Of a stretch of 36,494 nt of DNA, positions 440 through 36,494 are shown piece after piece (within the stretch, counting starts at the first letter, position 1; each line of letters opens with the position of its first letter). Under the pieces are notes generated by a model. The model was not told the DNA's origin, made no database searches, and saw only the letters and a program-made list of their open reading frames with translations. The translations under genes were made by a program, and so were the position numbers. Source of the stretch: a virus; the IMG/VR virus record IMGVR_UViG_3300047369_000126, positions 1-36,494 of that record; one strand, written 5' to 3'.

Positions 440-522
440 AAGGGTATTTTATAGTTAAAGGGTTATTGAAGGGTTTGTGAAGGGTATAATATACCCTACA
501 TAATAAAGCTAAAGATAAAGCT
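440..522 (+). repeat. Composite repeat element, copy A (terminase promoter)
   Basis: AAGGGTA at 440-446 is followed by AAGGGTT at 458-464 and 469-475 and AAGGGTA at 480-486; the last three are spaced exactly 11 bp. The last overlaps a 17-bp palindrome, AGGGTATA-A-TATACCCT (481-497). Seven AT-rich bases follow (498-504), then three hexamers AAAGCT, AAAGAT, AAAGCT (505-522). The -33 TTTG of the terminase promoter begins at 524. The same architecture recurs at 26320-26413 and 31262-31356. Helical-phase spacing suggests a protein bound to one face of the DNA. Whether the role is operator, activator site or replication origin is inference. Confidence 0.75.
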
Positions 523-523
523 A

Positions 524-555
524 TTTGTATATGTATAGTATTTTATTTAGTTTTG
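524..555 (+). promoter_or_regulatory. Bacteroidota-type promoter for terminase genes
   Basis: TTTG at 524-527, a 20-nt spacer, and TAGTTTTG at 548-555 match the Bacteroidota -33/-7 consensus (TTTG...TAnnTTTG). The -7 box ends only 4 nt before the ATG at 560, so the transcript should be leaderless or nearly so. The -33 box directly follows the hexamer run of composite element A, which suggests control by whatever binds that element. It is the likely promoter for the packaging/structural block. Confidence 0.75.
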
Positions 556-559
556 TATT

Positions 560-940
560 ATGAGTGAAGAAAAAAAGAAAGTTGTAGGCAGACCATTTTC
601 TGTTGGCAATACTGTTGGCGGTAGAACTAAAGGCGCTTTGAATAAGACCACTAAGTTCTCAAGAGAGGTTCTTACTTTAGCTCTAGCAGGGCAGGAAGAA
701 AATATTAGACAAGCACTAGAAAAATTATCTAAAAAAAATCCTGAAGCATATATCAATGCTGTCGCTAAACTTCTAAACTATGCAATACCAAAACTTCAAT
801 CTACTGAAATAAGTTCAAACGGAAACGCTAAGATAGAGATAACTCTTGATGATAGTATGAGTGTTGATGACCTTAAAAGGCGAATGGCTGAAATGGAAGC
901 CGAAGATGCAGACTTTGAAGATATAGATGGACAAGACTAA
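560..940 (+). CDS. Small terminase subunit (putative)
   Basis: The 126-codon product starts with a basic region containing GRPFSVGN (10-17) and GGRTKGALNKT (20-30). This resembles the GRPKGSxNKxT motif of DUF5681-type proteins often found next to large terminases. The middle looks helical and the C-terminus is very acidic, ending EDADFEDIDGQD. It would recognise phage DNA and hand it to the large subunit for packaging. The stop overlaps the large terminase start by 14 nt (927-940), which supports translational coupling. The ATG is chosen because it lies 4 nt after a strong -7 box. The assignment rests on the motif and position; I see no strongly diagnostic small-terminase fold. Confidence 0.65.
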   Translation: MSEEKKKVVGRPFSVGNTVGGRTKGALNKTTKFSREVLTLALAGQEENIRQALEKLSKKNPEAYINAVAKLLNYAIPKLQSTEISSNGNAKIEITLDDSMSVDDLKRRMAEMEAEDADFEDIDGQD

Positions 941-2354
941 AAAGGAACAACTGCTTAAAGCGATGGAGAAAGCCATCTGCGAGAAATCATTCTATGAGTT
1001 CTTTGTCAAAGCCTTCCCCATAGCAGAACCCTCAGTTCCTTTATCCACAAACTTCCACCATAAATACCTTTGCGATATTCTGCAAGGAGAAGCAGAAAGA
1101 ATAATAAAAGGAGAAAGAAAGGGTAAGGATATAATTATCAATATTCCCTTCCGTAGCACTAAGTCCTTACTTGTTACTGTTATGTTTCCCGCTTGGTGTT
1201 GGGCAGTATATCCCAAGATGAGGTTTATCACAGCATCATACTCGGCTGAGATTAGCATAGAACACGCAACAAAGTCAAGAGATATAATAAATAGCGAATG
1301 GTATCAAGGGCATTGGGCAGAAACATTTCAAATCAAAAAAGACCAAAACCTAAAAGCTAGATACGAAAATACACATCTAGGAGTTAGGAGAGCAACATCT
1401 GTTGGTGGTTCGGTAACAGGACAGGGTGGAGATATAATTCTAGTCGATGACCCTACATCACCAAAAAATGCTGCATCGGAAACAGAAAGAGATAATGCTA
1501 ACGAATGGTATAAGTCAACATTGTATTCACGACTTAATAATCCAACAACGGGAGTTAGGATAATTATTATGCAAAGAGTACACGAAGATGACCTTAGCGG
1601 TTACCTTCTATACAACTCACCCGACAAACATCATCATATCTGCATACCCGCAGAGCTTTCTAGCGACCTGAAGCCATATTCACTACACGAACACTATCAA
1701 GAAGGTTTATTTTGGAAAGAAAGATTCTCAAGAGAGGTTTTAGAGGACTATAAGTCAGCTTTGGGTAGTTATGGCTATGCAGGACAGCTACAACAAAGAC
1801 CAACACCTGCCGATAGTGGTATGTTACAGAAAAATTGGTTTAGAATAGATGATGAAAAGGTAGAAGATGTAGTAAACTTCGTTATTGACCCCGCATATAC
1901 CGCAAGTCAGAAAAATGACCCCTCAGCATTGATGGCATACACATATAGCGAGGGTAAATGGCAAATTAGAGAGGTTCAGAACGTAAGATTGGAGTTTCCT
2001 GACCTTGTAAAGCATATTGTTAAGTTTGTAAACAAAAATGGCTACACAAAACAATCAAAAATATTTGTAGAGCCTAAAGCTAGTGGTAAATCTATTGTTC
2101 AAACCCTAGTTAGAGAAACAGGACTTAACATAAAAGAAGATAAACCACCAACAAAAGATAAGGTGGCAAGAGTGCAAGATATTAGCGCAAGTATAGAAAC
2201 AGGAAGGGTATCACTACTAAAAGGTCATTGGAATGAAGAATTTCTTATGCAATGCCAAACATTTCCTGCTGCAAAGCACGATGATATGGTAGATTGCCTT
2301 GTAATGGCACTAAATAGACACTTTAACGGAAAAAAAATAGTATTTTTTGGCTAA
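927..2354 (+). CDS. terL: Terminase large subunit
   Basis: A 475-residue packaging motor with ATPase and nuclease domains. The Walker A region is a variant, IPFRSTKS (73-80). Walker B is DIILVDD (169-175), and the coupling motif is QRVHEDD (216-222). The C-terminal RNase H-like nuclease has D321 (VIDPAY), E382 (FVEPKASG) and D452/D453 (KHDDMVD) as probable metal ligands. The protein pumps DNA into the prohead and cuts the concatemer. Length and motif order fit the family. It overlaps the small terminase and is followed by a 71-nt gap holding the next promoter. The phosphate-binding loop lacks the usual glycines, which is common among phage terminases. Confidence 0.95.
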   Translation: MDKTKKEQLLKAMEKAICEKSFYEFFVKAFPIAEPSVPLSTNFHHKYLCDILQGEAERIIKGERKGKDIIINIPFRSTKSLLVTVMFPAWCWAVYPKMRFITASYSAEISIEHATKSRDIINSEWYQGHWAETFQIKKDQNLKARYENTHLGVRRATSVGGSVTGQGGDIILVDDPTSPKNAASETERDNANEWYKSTLYSRLNNPTTGVRIIIMQRVHEDDLSGYLLYNSPDKHHHICIPAELSSDLKPYSLHEHYQEGLFWKERFSREVLEDYKSALGSYGYAGQLQQRPTPADSGMLQKNWFRIDDEKVEDVVNFVIDPAYTASQKNDPSALMAYTYSEGKWQIREVQNVRLEFPDLVKHIVKFVNKNGYTKQSKIFVEPKASGKSIVQTLVRETGLNIKEDKPPTKDKVARVQDISASIETGRVSLLKGHWNEEFLMQCQTFPAAKHDDMVDCLVMALNRHFNGKKIVFFG

Positions 2355-25846: not shown

Positions 25847-26328
25847 TGAAACTTCTTTGCTTACGTTACAACAACTCTGTTGACAGTACTAACGGTATAT
25901 TGTTCTACGAAGGGTTTAGTGGTTACGATTTTATCTGTTACACTCTTGAGGATGAGTATAGAAAAGATAAGGTCAAAGGCGAAACAATGATACCTTATGG
26001 AACGTATGAAATTAAATATAGAAAAGAAGGTGGCTTCCATAATAAATATTCTAAAAGATTCCCTGATATTCATAGCGGTATGTTGCATATCACTAACGTT
26101 CCTAATTTTGAGTATATTCTTATACATTGCGGAAATACTGATGAGCATACTAGCGGATGTTTGCTTGTGGGTGATTCACAAGAGAATAATGATTTTGTTA
26201 CTAACGGTTTTATAGGCAAGTCAACACAAGCCTACAAGAGATTGTATAGAATGGTTGCTGAGGTTTTAGACAGAGGAGAGCAAGTATTCATAGAATATAA
26301 ACACACAAATGATTTTTTTAAGGGTTAA
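25846..26328 (+). CDS. DUF5675 family protein, probable lysis enzyme
   Basis: A 160-residue protein with the conserved pattern of DUF5675: STNGILF near the N-terminus, CYTLEDEYR (about 31-39), KGETMIPYGTYEI (about 44-56), GMLHITNVPNFEYILIHCGNTDEHTSGCLLVG (about 78-109), then STQAYKRLYRMV. The invariant H, C and GN residues suggest an active site. In Bacteroidota phages the family often sits next to holins where an endolysin would be expected, and that is the case here. No other muralytic enzyme is visible in this window. The exact activity is not established. Confidence 0.75.
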   Translation: MKLLCLRYNNSVDSTNGILFYEGFSGYDFICYTLEDEYRKDKVKGETMIPYGTYEIKYRKEGGFHNKYSKRFPDIHSGMLHITNVPNFEYILIHCGNTDEHTSGCLLVGDSQENNDFVTNGFIGKSTQAYKRLYRMVAEVLDRGEQVFIEYKHTNDFFKG

Positions 26329-26413
26329 CTAACCCTTGCCAAAGGGTTTACATAGGGTAGTTTATACCCTATATAATAAAGCTAAAGCTAAGGTTAAAGA
26401 TAAAGTTAAAGAT
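26320..26413 (+). repeat. Composite repeat element, copy B (holin leader)
   Basis: AAGGGTT (26320-26326), AACCCTT (26331-26337, inverted), AAGGGTT (26342-26348) and TAGGGTA (26353-26359) sit at exact 11-bp steps. The last overlaps the 17-bp palindrome AGGGTA-GTTTA-TACCCT (26354-26370). Seven AT bases (26371-26377) and six hexamers of AARGNT type (26378-26413) follow, abutting the holin ATG. The first site overlaps the end of the DUF5675 gene. The architecture matches copies at 440-522 and 31262-31356. Confidence 0.75.
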
Positions 26414-26803
26414 ATGAGTATATTAAAAAAAATATTTAGCAGCGGTGCAAAAGAGTTGGTTGATAGTGTAGGCAATGCTATTGACAAGATACACACAAGT
26501 GCCGAAGAAAAAGAGCTTGTAAAGGCTGAGGTAAACAGGGTGGTTCAGGAGTTTGAGGAGAAGATGCAGGTTGAGGTAACTAAGAGGTGGGAAGCTGATA
26601 TGCAGGGTAATTGGCTTACTAAGTCGATAAGACCACTATCACTAGCTTTCTTACTACTTGTACTTACTGTATTCACTCTAATTGACTTTGGATATGTCGA
26701 TATGGACATCAAGGATTCTTGGATTGACCTGTGGCAACTACTAGCCATAACTGCCTTTGGTGCGTACTTCGGAGGAAGGTCGTACGAAAAAATAAAGAAA
26801 TAA
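26414..26803 (+). CDS. Holin-like membrane protein
   Basis: A 129-residue protein. The N-terminal half is a charged helix/coiled coil (AEEKELVKAEVNRVVQEFEEKMQVEV). The C-terminal half has two probable membrane helices, PLSLAFLLLVLTVFTLIDFG (about 72-91) and LWQLLAITAFGAYFGG (about 103-118), then a basic end (RSYEKIKK). This is typical of 2-3-TM holins of the "holin of 3TMs" type. I chose the ATG at 26414. An in-frame TTG at 26336 would add 26 residues encoded by composite element B (KAKAKVKDKVKD) and is less likely. It follows the lysis gene and ends the late block. Confidence 0.7.
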   Translation: MSILKKIFSSGAKELVDSVGNAIDKIHTSAEEKELVKAEVNRVVQEFEEKMQVEVTKRWEADMQGNWLTKSIRPLSLAFLLLVLTVFTLIDFGYVDMDIKDSWIDLWQLLAITAFGAYFGGRSYEKIKK

Positions 26804-28884: not shown

Positions 28885-29121
28885 ATGACAAAGATAGCAA
28901 ACAATGAGTTTCACAAATTAGTGAGAATAACAGGAATGACTAAGCGTAGGTTTAGTGAAGTAACAGGACTGAAAGGAACAAGTATAGACAAGTATCTTCA
29001 AGACCCCACAATGCTTAGGCTTAAACATTTACAGCTACTAGCTGATGCAGAAGAGTTTAAGAAGCAAGAGCTTGGAGATGTTGAACTATTAAATATGATT
29101 AAGCAAGATGACAAGTTATAG
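28885..29121 (+). CDS. Putative HTH DNA-binding protein
   Basis: A 78-residue protein with a Cro/XRE-like helical pattern at about 10-55: FHKLVRITGMTKRRFSEVTG, LKGTSIDKYLQDP, LRLKHLQLLADA. The SxxTGLKGTSIDKYL part fits a recognition helix region, though the layout is not fully canonical. It lies in the early operon and overlaps the DnaA-like gene by 14 nt. It could act as a small regulator. Confidence 0.5.
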   Translation: MTKIANNEFHKLVRITGMTKRRFSEVTGLKGTSIDKYLQDPTMLRLKHLQLLADAEEFKKQELGDVELLNMIKQDDKL

Positions 29122-29536
29122 AGAAGAGATTTTAAAAAAAGCTGTTTGTAAGTATTACAATATAACAGACAAAGAACTACATTCTAAATCTAGGAGGTCT
29201 GATATTGTAGGCGCGAGAAGAATGTTTTACTATATGGCTAGGAAGCATTTTGACCAAACATATAAGTCAATAGGCAGAAAGTTTAATCAAGACCACGCAA
29301 CAGTAATATTTCACGAAAAGAAATTAGCATCTTTCTTAACATTTGACAAATCAGAGATAAGAAGGTATATCAAAGTAAGGGATATGGTGTTTGACGAGGT
29401 TACATATCTTAATATAAAAGATGAAATGGATTCCCTATTAAGAGATAAAATAATTATAGATGATAGGTTATTTGAAATAAAGAATGAATTAACAGCAATT
29501 AGTAATCAAAACAATTTTAACTATTATGGAAATTAA
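29108..29536 (+). CDS. DnaA domain IV-like DNA-binding protein
   Basis: A 142-residue protein whose first 75 residues match the DnaA C-terminal DNA-binding domain: VCKYYNITDKELHSKSRRSDIVGARRMFYYMARKH (about 13-47), IGRKFNQDHATVIFHEKKL (55-73). The DHATV signature that contacts the DnaA box is intact (D62-V66). There is no AAA+ ATPase part, so it binds DNA but cannot form an ATP-dependent initiation filament alone. The C-terminus (about 80-142) is helical. It probably marks an origin or competes for host DnaA boxes. Followed by an SSB-like gene with an 11-nt overlap. Confidence 0.8.
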   Translation: MTSYREEILKKAVCKYYNITDKELHSKSRRSDIVGARRMFYYMARKHFDQTYKSIGRKFNQDHATVIFHEKKLASFLTFDKSEIRRYIKVRDMVFDEVTYLNIKDEMDSLLRDKIIIDDRLFEIKNELTAISNQNNFNYYGN

Positions 29537-29837
29537 AGGAACTTTAGAAGCAAAGTTTGAAACTAAAACTTTCAACAGCGGATTTAGAAAAAGAGAGTTT
29601 GTGGTAAACACAGGAGGAGAATACCCTCAGTCAATAAAGATGGAAGTTGTAAAAGACAACATAGAAAAGATTGATAGCGTGGAGGTGGGAACTGAGGTCA
29701 CTTGCAAGATTGACATCAGAGGTCGCCTATATGAAGGTAACTACTACAATAACATTTTGGCTTGGGCAGTAAATGTCGGAGGTGCTAAGACAGAAAAAGC
29801 CAATACTGTAAAAGAAGAATCAGACTTACCCTTTTAA
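29526..29837 (+). CDS. DUF3127 single-stranded-DNA-binding-like protein
   Basis: A 103-residue OB-fold-like protein with the DUF3127 pattern: GFRKREFVVNTGGEYPQSIKMEVVKD (about 19-44), VGTEVTCKIDIRGRLYEGNYYNNILAWAV (about 55-83). It ends in the acidic ESDLPF, resembling the SSB C-terminal tip (DDDIPF) that recruits partner proteins. It probably coats ssDNA in phage replication. It overlaps the DnaA-like gene by 11 nt. Confidence 0.75.
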   Translation: MEIKGTLEAKFETKTFNSGFRKREFVVNTGGEYPQSIKMEVVKDNIEKIDSVEVGTEVTCKIDIRGRLYEGNYYNNILAWAVNVGGAKTEKANTVKEESDLPF

Positions 29838-30250: not shown

Positions 30251-30679
30251 ATGGCTAAGTACGAAACAGCACAGGATAGGAAGCGACAAGAGAGAGCATC
30301 TAGGCTATTCTGCCACGCATTTGACCTAGTAAGCATAGATAGAGGAGAGTTTGCTGCTGTTGACTATGACCTAGTTAATAAACAACAAGACCTTATCGGT
30401 GCTTTAGAAGTCAAGGGATGTCCTGACAGGAATATAGATGATGATTTGGTAGTGCAGGTGGCTATAAGAAAGTTAGTTGACTTACAGAATCATCAGAAGA
30501 AAACCAATAGACCTGTGGCAATCTGTTGGGCATTTGATGATGGAATAGTATATGAGAGAATATCAAATCTATTTGGTAATTTTAGGCTAGGTGGTCGTAA
30601 GCCAAGAGCAGGAGGTTACAATGATATTGAGATAATGGCTAGGATAGAAATAAAAAATCTTAAAAAAGTTTTGTATTAA
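30251..30679 (+). CDS. Putative PD-(D/E)XK nuclease
   Basis: A 142-residue protein with the core AAVDYDLVNKQQDLIGALEVKG. D38/D40, E53 and K55 can form the D...ExK active site of the PD-(D/E)XK superfamily, followed by VQVAIRKLVDLQ (helix) and AICWAFDDG (strand), which fit the fold order. A role as a Holliday-junction or repair nuclease is plausible. It ends just before an early promoter. Confidence 0.55.
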   Translation: MAKYETAQDRKRQERASRLFCHAFDLVSIDRGEFAAVDYDLVNKQQDLIGALEVKGCPDRNIDDDLVVQVAIRKLVDLQNHQKKTNRPVAICWAFDDGIVYERISNLFGNFRLGGRKPRAGGYNDIEIMARIEIKNLKKVLY

Positions 30680-30933: not shown

Positions 30934-31602
30934 ATGGCAAAACGAATGACAGATACAGACAAGTGGAAGAAACGCTTTCTGAAAGAACTAAAACCTGAAC
31001 ACAAGCTACTATGGTTCTACATATTAGACGACTGCAATCACGCAGGAATATGGGATGTAGATATAGAAGTAGCGTCAATTAGAATAGGTGCAGACCTTAT
31101 TTACGATATGCTACCACAGGCATTTCTTGACAAGATAGTAATCTTTGACAATGGCGACAAATGGTTTATTCCTGACTTTATTGAGTTTCAATATGGCGAA
31201 CTTAATCCAAACTCTAATGTGCATAAGTCGGTAATTGCATTACTTGACAAATATAATCTTGAAGGGTATGGGAAGGGTTCACAAGGGGTACAAAGTACCC
31301 TTAATAATAAAGATAAAGATAAAGATATAGTTAAAGCTAAGGTTAAGGCTAAGAGGTTTGTAAAGCCAACAATCGAAGAAGTTGCAGACTATTGCGAAGA
31401 AAGAAACAACAATGTAGATGCTGAGAAGTTTTACGACTACTACTCATCTAATGGATGGAAAGTTGGTAAGAACGCAATGAAAGATTGGAAAGCATCTGTA
31501 AGAACGTGGGAGAAGAATACAACCCAAGAGCAAAAAGTATCACAACCAAAACAAGTACTAACGTCTTGGCAACAAGCAAGAGAACAAATAAACAATGGCT
31601 AA
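30934..31602 (+). CDS. DnaD-like replisome organiser / replication initiator
   Basis: A 222-residue protein. The N-terminal half (1-105) resembles a winged-helix phage replisome organiser: WKKRFLKELKPEHKLLWFYILDDCNHAGIWDVD, DKWFIPDFIEFQYGELNPNSNVH. A Lys/Asp/Ala linker (about 125-143, KDKDKDIVKAKVKAKRF) is encoded by composite element C. The C-terminal part (PTIEEVADYCEERNNNVDAEKFYDYYSSNGWKVGKNAMKDWKASVRTWEKN) is characteristic of replication proteins of Bacteroidota phages. As in lambda O, the linker DNA may serve as an origin. It overlaps the next gene by 8 nt. Confidence 0.75.
   Translation: MAKRMTDTDKWKKRFLKELKPEHKLLWFYILDDCNHAGIWDVDIEVASIRIGADLIYDMLPQAFLDKIVIFDNGDKWFIPDFIEFQYGELNPNSNVHKSVIALLDKYNLEGYGKGSQGVQSTLNNKDKDKDIVKAKVKAKRFVKPTIEEVADYCEERNNNVDAEKFYDYYSSNGWKVGKNAMKDWKASVRTWEKNTTQEQKVSQPKQVLTSWQQAREQINNG
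31262..31356 (+). repeat. Composite repeat element, copy C (inside initiator gene)
   Basis: AAGGGTA (31262-31268), AAGGGTT (31273-31279) and AGGGGTA (31284-31290) sit at exact 11-bp steps. The last overlaps a 17-bp palindrome, GGGGTAC-AAA-GTACCCT (31285-31301). After seven AT bases (31302-31308), eight hexamers of AARGNT/ATAGTT/AAGAGG type (31309-31356) code in frame for alternating Lys-X. The same order is found at 440-522 and 26320-26413. Location inside the initiator gene suggests an origin of replication. Confidence 0.75.
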
Positions 31603-36268: not shown

Positions 36269-36494
36269 TATGAACTTAACAAGATTTTAACAATACAGAT
36301 AAGGCAAAAGTTACGCTATTGCCGTTTATTTTTGCGCTTATTATTATGATTTTTGAATGGCTGATAGGCTAAAAAATTCTTTTTAATAAGCAATTAAACA
36401 AATATTTAACGCACTTTTTACAAGTTTTGACGGATTTTCTTATAGATTTTCCGTCAATTTTTTTGGTCAGGATGTGTAGCCACATATACGCAAC
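36269..36494. repeat. Right copy of 226-bp terminal direct repeat
   Basis: Matches 1-226 except for TT instead of AG at 36394-36395. It begins 22 nt after the stop codon of the last gene and runs to the end of the window. The T-tailed hairpin at 36427-36464 lies inside it and would terminate the rightmost transcript. Confidence 0.9.
36427..36464 (+). terminator. Hairpin terminator, right copy
   Basis: Second copy of the 8-bp TTGACGGA/TCCGTCAA hairpin with a T-tract, about 180 nt downstream of the stop codon of the 366-codon gene that ends at 36247. It probably terminates that transcription unit. Confidence 0.6.

Follow-up and report, generated by a model that had tools for sequence, protein, structure and literature searches.

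In the phage SPP1, the repeats and the AT-rich strip of oriL lie inside the gene of the initiator gp38. The same initiator binds a second, similar site in the late region, oriR, at a distance of about 12-13 kb; oriR has been proposed to stall forks and to bring about the change to concatemer synthesis (PMC6316719, PMC3485210). Phage lambda has a single ori, located in gene O, where 19-bp iterons are bound by the N-terminal half of O and adjoined by an AT-rich, highly strand-asymmetric strip; extra copies of this ori on a plasmid arrest the phage (PMC4488673). In oriC of B. subtilis a strand-specific repeat of short period, the DRE, stands beside the initiator boxes and recruits DnaD (PMC10201434). 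Plasmid origins of the RepE/RepA type combine phased iterons with a repeated DUE strip. In the satellite phage P4, one initiator binds both ori and a distant cis site, crr, which is needed for replication.

We analysed a marine phage DNA record of 36,494 bases (below, the window) which carries three copies of a composite element. The ends of the record, 1-226 and 36269-36494, repeat directly (226 nt, 99% identical), and because they match each other the window is probably a complete genome, circular or terminally redundant. The promoter type and the terminase relatives, which infect Croceibacter and Cellulophaga, suggest a Bacteroidota-type host. All three copies, A, B and C, lie on the + strand (Table 1), and each runs from phased GGG/CCC half-sites through a palindrome of 17 bp and a spacer of 7 nt to the AWRGHT hexamers.

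Table 1. Features of the three-copy element and neighbouring genes in the window.
Feature	Position	Strand	Details
Copy A, whole element	458-522	+	
Copy A iteron array	458-497	+	AAGGGTT 458, AAGGGTT 469, AAGGGTA 480, in 11-bp steps; inverted TACCCT 492-497
Copy A palindrome	481-497	+	from the core search
Copy A spacer and hexamers	498-504; 505-522	+	spacer ACATAAT; hexamers AAAGCT AAAGAT AAAGCT, purine-rich, weakly paired
Promoter TTTG-N20-TAGTTTTG	524-555	+	Bacteroidota-type; starts 1 nt past the hexamers; for the terS/late block
Probable terminase small subunit (terS)	560-940	+	by position, directly 5′ of terL
Terminase large subunit (terL)	927-2354	+	PHROG phrog_38, E 3e-100; Pfam Terminase_6C
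Copy B, whole element	26320-26413	+	
Copy B iteron array	26320-26370	+	AAGGGTT 26320, inverted AACCCTT 26331, AAGGGTT 26342, TAGGGTA 26353
Copy B closing half-site and palindrome	26365-26370; 26354-26370	+	inverted TACCCT; palindrome
Copy B spacer and hexamers	26371-26413	+	spacer ATATAAT; six hexamers, abutting the holin ATG (26414)
Holin	26414-26803	+	PHROG phrog_3427, lysis/holin, E 2e-24
DnaA domain-IV-only protein with tail	29108-29536	+	Pfam Bac_DnaA_C, E 6.9e-20
DnaD-like replication initiator	30934-31602	+	AlphaFold model, fold comparison, weak PHROG match
Copy C, whole element	31262-31350	+	
Copy C iteron array	31262-31301	+	AAGGGTA 31262, AAGGGTT 31273, AGGGGTA 31284; inverted TACCCT 31296-31301
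Copy C palindrome	31285-31301	+	within the initiator gene
Copy C spacer and hexamers	31302-31350	+	spacer TAATAAT; seven hexamers: AAAGAT x3, ATAGTT, AAAGCT, AAGGTT, AAGGCT

When up to 3 mismatches are allowed, the core AGGGTA-N5-TACCCT-N2-ATAATAAAG has three matches in the window, all on the + strand, and none in 100 dinucleotide shuffles of it. An independent repeat search of the window recovered A, B and C as one 73-nt family with 70-74% identity. Three successive AWRGHT hexamers occur in A, B and C only, always on the + strand, while the reversed pattern used as control has 0 matches. The three-copy element reported in a first-pass annotation of this DNA is thus real, and the spacer of form NNATAAT given there is exact in 3/3 copies. 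Its description of uniform AAGGGTW sites at exact 11-bp steps needs correction. The steps hold for the sites at 458, 469 and 480, but a further site at 440 stands 18 bp from the next one, and most relatives have TCTATTTTATAG or CCTATTTTATAG there instead. Because this site is out of step and mostly not kept, we let copy A begin at 458. Neither are the sites uniform, since copy B includes an inverted AACCCTT (26331-26337) and TAGGGTA, and the third site of copy C is AGGGGTA. The spacing of 11 bp is that between the centres of direct half-site pairs, whereas inverted pairs are 11-13 bp apart, and the same distances are found in the relatives. The strip adjoining the half-sites is AT-rich and strand-asymmetric, with purine-rich hexamers in a locked register. 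When the 50-bp windows of this genome are ranked by stability, the hexamer regions fall in the lowest 0.3-2%; this instability is weaker in several relatives, where up to 15% of windows are less stable.

The element can be set beside the described origins, and the earlier statement that no described system has such a structure was too strong, as the lambda and SPP1 origins are comparable. As in SPP1, repeats and an AT-rich strip lie within the initiator gene and further copies of the module are found at a distance in the late region, so that the earlier suggestion of multiple origins fits the oriL/oriR pair. The window, however, has three sites, of which two occupy conserved functional positions (the late promoter and the holin start), and differs in half-sites, palindrome and hexamer strip; the likeness described here is one of layout. 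As in lambda, the repeats stand inside the initiator gene between the DNA-binding and the C-terminal parts, but lambda has one ori with longer iterons and is arrested by extra copies, of which the window phage carries two natively. The P4 initiator is of a different class from that of the window. The complement of AAAGAT repeats contains 5′-TnnT-3′ motifs like those of the DRE, and the hexamer strip may work in a similar way. This comparison stays an analogy because some hexamers break the TnnT rule, their variation falling on the very positions which make TnnT, and only the C-domain of the initiator resembles DnaD, weakly. As an identification of the hexamers, TnnT fits AAAGAT only and fails at the degenerate positions, and the period of the DnaA-trio, compared by eye, does not fit either. 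Taken by its sequence, the module fits the known kind of intragenic, initiator-bound origin; what appears new is the third site, together with the conserved positions at the late promoter and at the start of the holin gene. In the open-access literature we found no report of such an element in Bacteroidota phages.

Our best explanation is that the module is an origin-type element bound by an initiator and read by the phage's own DnaD-like initiator, and we put the probability of this at about 0.75. The winged-helix N-domain would bind the GGG/CCC half-sites, which lie one helical turn apart. Its cooperative binding, ended by the inverted half-site, would strain the adjoining AT-rich spacer and AWRGHT hexamers; the strained spacer and the purine-rich hexamers would then open, and the exposed strand could receive the C-domain of the initiator or the host helicase. 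Copy C would be the likely main origin, in the arrangement of lambda O and SPP1 oriL. Copies A and B would bind the same initiator too and would most likely act late, as secondary origins or in the control of forks, which is what has been proposed for SPP1 oriR; initiator bound at A may also adjust the late promoter. We infer binding, strand opening, firing and any promoter effect, and grade the parts separately: origin firing at A or B seems to us a little short of an even chance, and that A switches the late promoter is doubtful. GC skew around the copies, which had been proposed as a check, is flat across the window without a switch at A, B or C, and firing is therefore unsupported by composition.

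The AlphaFold model of the initiator shows a winged-helix-like N-domain (residues 4-113), a disordered linker (114-140, pLDDT<50) and a C-domain (141-197). Copy C fills exactly this linker between the two folded domains, and its hexamers translate as K-D/V/A codons. A PHROG match to DnaD-like helicase loaders is weak (E 7.8e-4 for the window initiator), and 16/29 relatives match; the initiator's other PHROG matches are to unnamed families. There was no DnaD match in a Pfam search of the initiator, no relative in a PDB sequence search with its family, and no Foldseek match under E 1. Fold matches obtained with VIA-align are weak (best Z 6.3). Because Foldseek had none under E 1, the winged-helix call relies on these matches and the model. 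For the N-domain they include RepA (1hkq), Rep (8ac8) and a DnaD model at Z 4-6, with many others equal. The iteron plasmid origins thus share with the window phased iterons, a repeated strip and weak N-domain fold matches, but no sequence relation was found and many winged-helix proteins score equally. The replication block also holds a putative PDDEXK_14 endonuclease (30251-30679) and a DUF3127 single-strand-binding-like protein (29526-29837).

How far copy C is constrained as DNA was evaluated in 71 distinct initiator genes, with the linker boundary set independently of the hexamer pattern and synonymous-codon entropy expressed relative to each gene's own codon usage. The iteron codons (109-123) had an entropy ratio of 0.09 and the hexamer codons (124-141) one of 0.35, compared with 0.54-0.74 for the other parts of the gene. 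Gly111 is GGG and Gly115 is GGT in 71/71 genes, and Lys114 is always AAG. In the linkers Ile is written ATA in 96/96 cases versus 388/827 elsewhere in the same genes, and GAT serves for 204/206 Asp, GTT for 159/171 Val and GCT for 100/103 Ala. The amino acids of the linker vary inside the hexamer rule, while the DNA rule is constant. The silent sites of copy C are frozen; therefore selection acts on DNA, and by this codon evidence copy C is selected as DNA and not for its codons alone.

Relatives were collected by an initiator protein search of viral contigs (157 relatives, 80 kept) and by a DNA search with the core (79 stretches), the way in which the loci were fetched by DNA pattern favouring those with the element. 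Some 150 distinct hexamer arrays were counted in about 2 Mb of loci: the initiator gene accounts for 69, the position before the holin for 46 (one truncated at a contig start) and that before terS for 30; three are cut by contig ends and two lie in unrelated coding sequence. All those in the initiator (69), before the holin (45) and before terS (30) have half-sites upstream. The conservation search proposed beforehand thus finds the element kept at the three places, in dozens of contigs from marine phages. Genome-length contigs of the window's group have B and C wherever they hold the region and A in most cases, in counts which ignore kinship (contigs are not independent events) and from contigs which may be incomplete. 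Outside these places the genomes contain no cluster of at least three AGGGT/ACCCT at close spacing. Measured from the last CCC centre, the first hexamer begins at 10 nt or at a distance which differs from this by multiples of six, and this is so in the non-coding copies A and B as well. Two losses were seen within the group: copy A is absent at terS from the clade G009/G013/G025, which keeps its terS, and copy B was not found at the holin of contig L066, so the extra copies are not indispensable. Co-variation of half-sites among A, B and C in this group is uninformative because the AGGGT core hardly varies. The isolated flavobacterial phages nearest in terminase, P2559Y and P2559S, yielded no iteron-hexamer element, and the collections contained no isolate belonging to the window's own group.

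The first half-site of copy B overlaps the 3′ end of the upstream DUF5675 gene, and the copy is non-coding, with an in-frame stop 12-37 codons 5′ of the holin ATG in 51/51 relatives. A promoter box after copy B was found in 0/50 loci examined, so that the coupling of replication to late transcription proposed earlier is inapplicable here. For copy A, whose position at the terS promoter recurs in two phage groups, such a coupling would agree with the placement. The pattern TTTG-N20-TAGTTTTG is matched 10 times in the window, where 2.4 matches would be expected. The distance of 1 nt between hexamers and TTTG, given in the first-pass annotation, holds in the window and one sister clade but not in other relatives. 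The protein encoded at 560-940 has PHROG matches solely to families of unknown function. Directly 5′ of copy A lies a conserved AT-rich block (about 400-457 in the window, CACAAAAAAAATTTTAAAAGTCTATTTTATAG in relatives), possibly a bend or a terminator.

It is instructive to follow the layout in more distant phages. In Pseudanabaena phage Pan5 the N-domain of the initiator is 62% identical and the C-domain unrelated, and the linker carries ATGGGGC-ATCTATCCCCCAT-AAATGGGGG followed by hexamers. The phages that share the N-domain only, Pan5 and the distant relatives L157-L214, have half-sites with other letters (ATGGGGG, AAGCCCCTT/AAGGGGCT) in an unchanged layout; L157-L214 use AAGCCCCTT/AAGGGGCT or AAGGGTT. 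Copies in the initiator linker are the commonest form in distant phages. A search by DNA layout only (AGGGGYTAARGATAARGATAARGA) returned 43 stretches, 33 distinct, and 25/33 distinct sites lie inside an ORF whose protein matches the initiator N-domain. Since the layout travels with the N-domain and the DnaA domain-IV-only protein was not found in the element carriers Pan5, G018 and G019, the N-domain is, by this association, the best candidate reader of the element. The earlier proposal that one protein binds all three places is accordingly well supported by inference, with the DnaD-like initiator as the probable common binder.

Some non-coding sites from the layout search stand directly 5′ of a different terS, Terminase_4 (Pfam E 8e-20). 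A protein search with this TerS, which is independent of the element and so unbiased, gave 57 loci with 39 distinct upstream regions, and GGG/CCC sites accompanied by one or more hexamer steps occur in 33/39 of these unselected regions. Ten genome-length contigs of this second group encode the initiator (E about 1e-25 to 1e-29), with no array in its linker. Exactly one array, 5′ of the Terminase_4 terS, is found in 8/10 contigs; the exceptions are G061, with a variant (AAGAAT steps), and G062, where none was found. The module can therefore leave the initiator gene, and judged from these contigs it is separable from that gene and can stand alone at a terS promoter. Contigs G052-G059 (loci L414-L429) have the same initiator domains, an empty linker and a single module before the Terminase_4 terS.

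The recurrence at terS can be read in other ways. The element could serve mainly to control transcription, the initiator or a small HTH protein switching the late promoter at A and autoregulating at C, with replication incidental. A TAnnTTTG box follows copy A in 27/28 relatives, in agreement with the promoter earlier placed beside this copy, and follows the module in 25/28 loci of the second group, a hand-made list of loci having an element; these selected sets compare with 7.7% of random background windows. However, copy B has no such box, copy C is situated in the middle of a gene, it is not obvious what an operator would need the hexamer strip and its locked register for, and the linker copies prevail in distant phages; we consider mainly transcriptional control improbable. 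A pac or recombination site, with A as the start site of the terminase or the copies as junctions for exchange of gene modules, would agree with adjacency to two different TerS families and with the divergence of TerS (53-97% identity) immediately past the conserved copy A. Against it stand identical modules before the holin and within the initiator gene, distant phages that carry the module solely in the initiator, and the clade that retains terS without copy A, and such a site is very improbable in our estimation.

Main reading by the DnaA domain-IV-only protein or by host DnaA, in an oriC-type array of DnaA boxes, appears highly improbable. The protein does match Bac_DnaA_C, and it co-occurs with the element and the initiator family in many of these phages (it is diverged in G009 and G013). 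Yet TTATNCACA boxes are at chance level (4 vs 2.95 expected) with 0 inside any element, so that no DnaA-box cluster is present, and no Bac_DnaA_C match was found in Pan5, G017, G018 and G019; the element is clearly present in Pan5, G018 and G019. A helper role of this protein is possible, and it is disfavoured as main reader. We give next to no credence to the view that A and B are functionless decayed duplicates of the initiator linker, or that the hexamers merely encode a K-D linker. The hexamers of copy C do encode residues of lysine-aspartate type, common in flexible linkers, but half-sites, spacer and hexamers, with their register, persist in the non-coding A and B of dozens of divergent phages, the codon choice in C is frozen far past the need of the protein, and the second group has its array outside the initiator gene and none within. 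Thus the refutations offered in the first-pass annotation fail, because the element is conserved in relatives and a coding or decayed-copy explanation does not hold for all three copies.

If the module is an origin-type element of the phage initiator, as we prefer, then phased GGG/CCC half-sites with AWRGHT hexamers provide a DNA-only signature by which candidate origins and initiators can be located in a large number of Bacteroidota phages, most of them uncharacterised. Phages with the module in the initiator only, in the initiator and two more places, or only before terS would serve as natural experiments, and with conserved extra copies standing at the late promoter and at the start of the holin gene, the way phages time replication, packaging and lysis can be tested directly. 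It is conceivable, with odds well under even, that initiator at A is a switch from replication to late expression which turns on the packaging genes, and that B acts as a local signal, of dose or timing, for lysis. Were this true, the module at promoters of two unrelated terS families would represent a general design of Bacteroidota phages.

Two minor observations concern the position of the module. In the second group, many independent contigs (L360-L382) start close to the module, 250-600 nt 5′ of terS, perhaps because of a packaging end or an assembly break. The module also occurs between the tape-measure gene and a 77-residue ORF (L284:6765-6830, L287, L290, L312, L317, L321); near the L284 module, this ORF is cysteine-rich and has a weak PHROG match to a function-unknown family.
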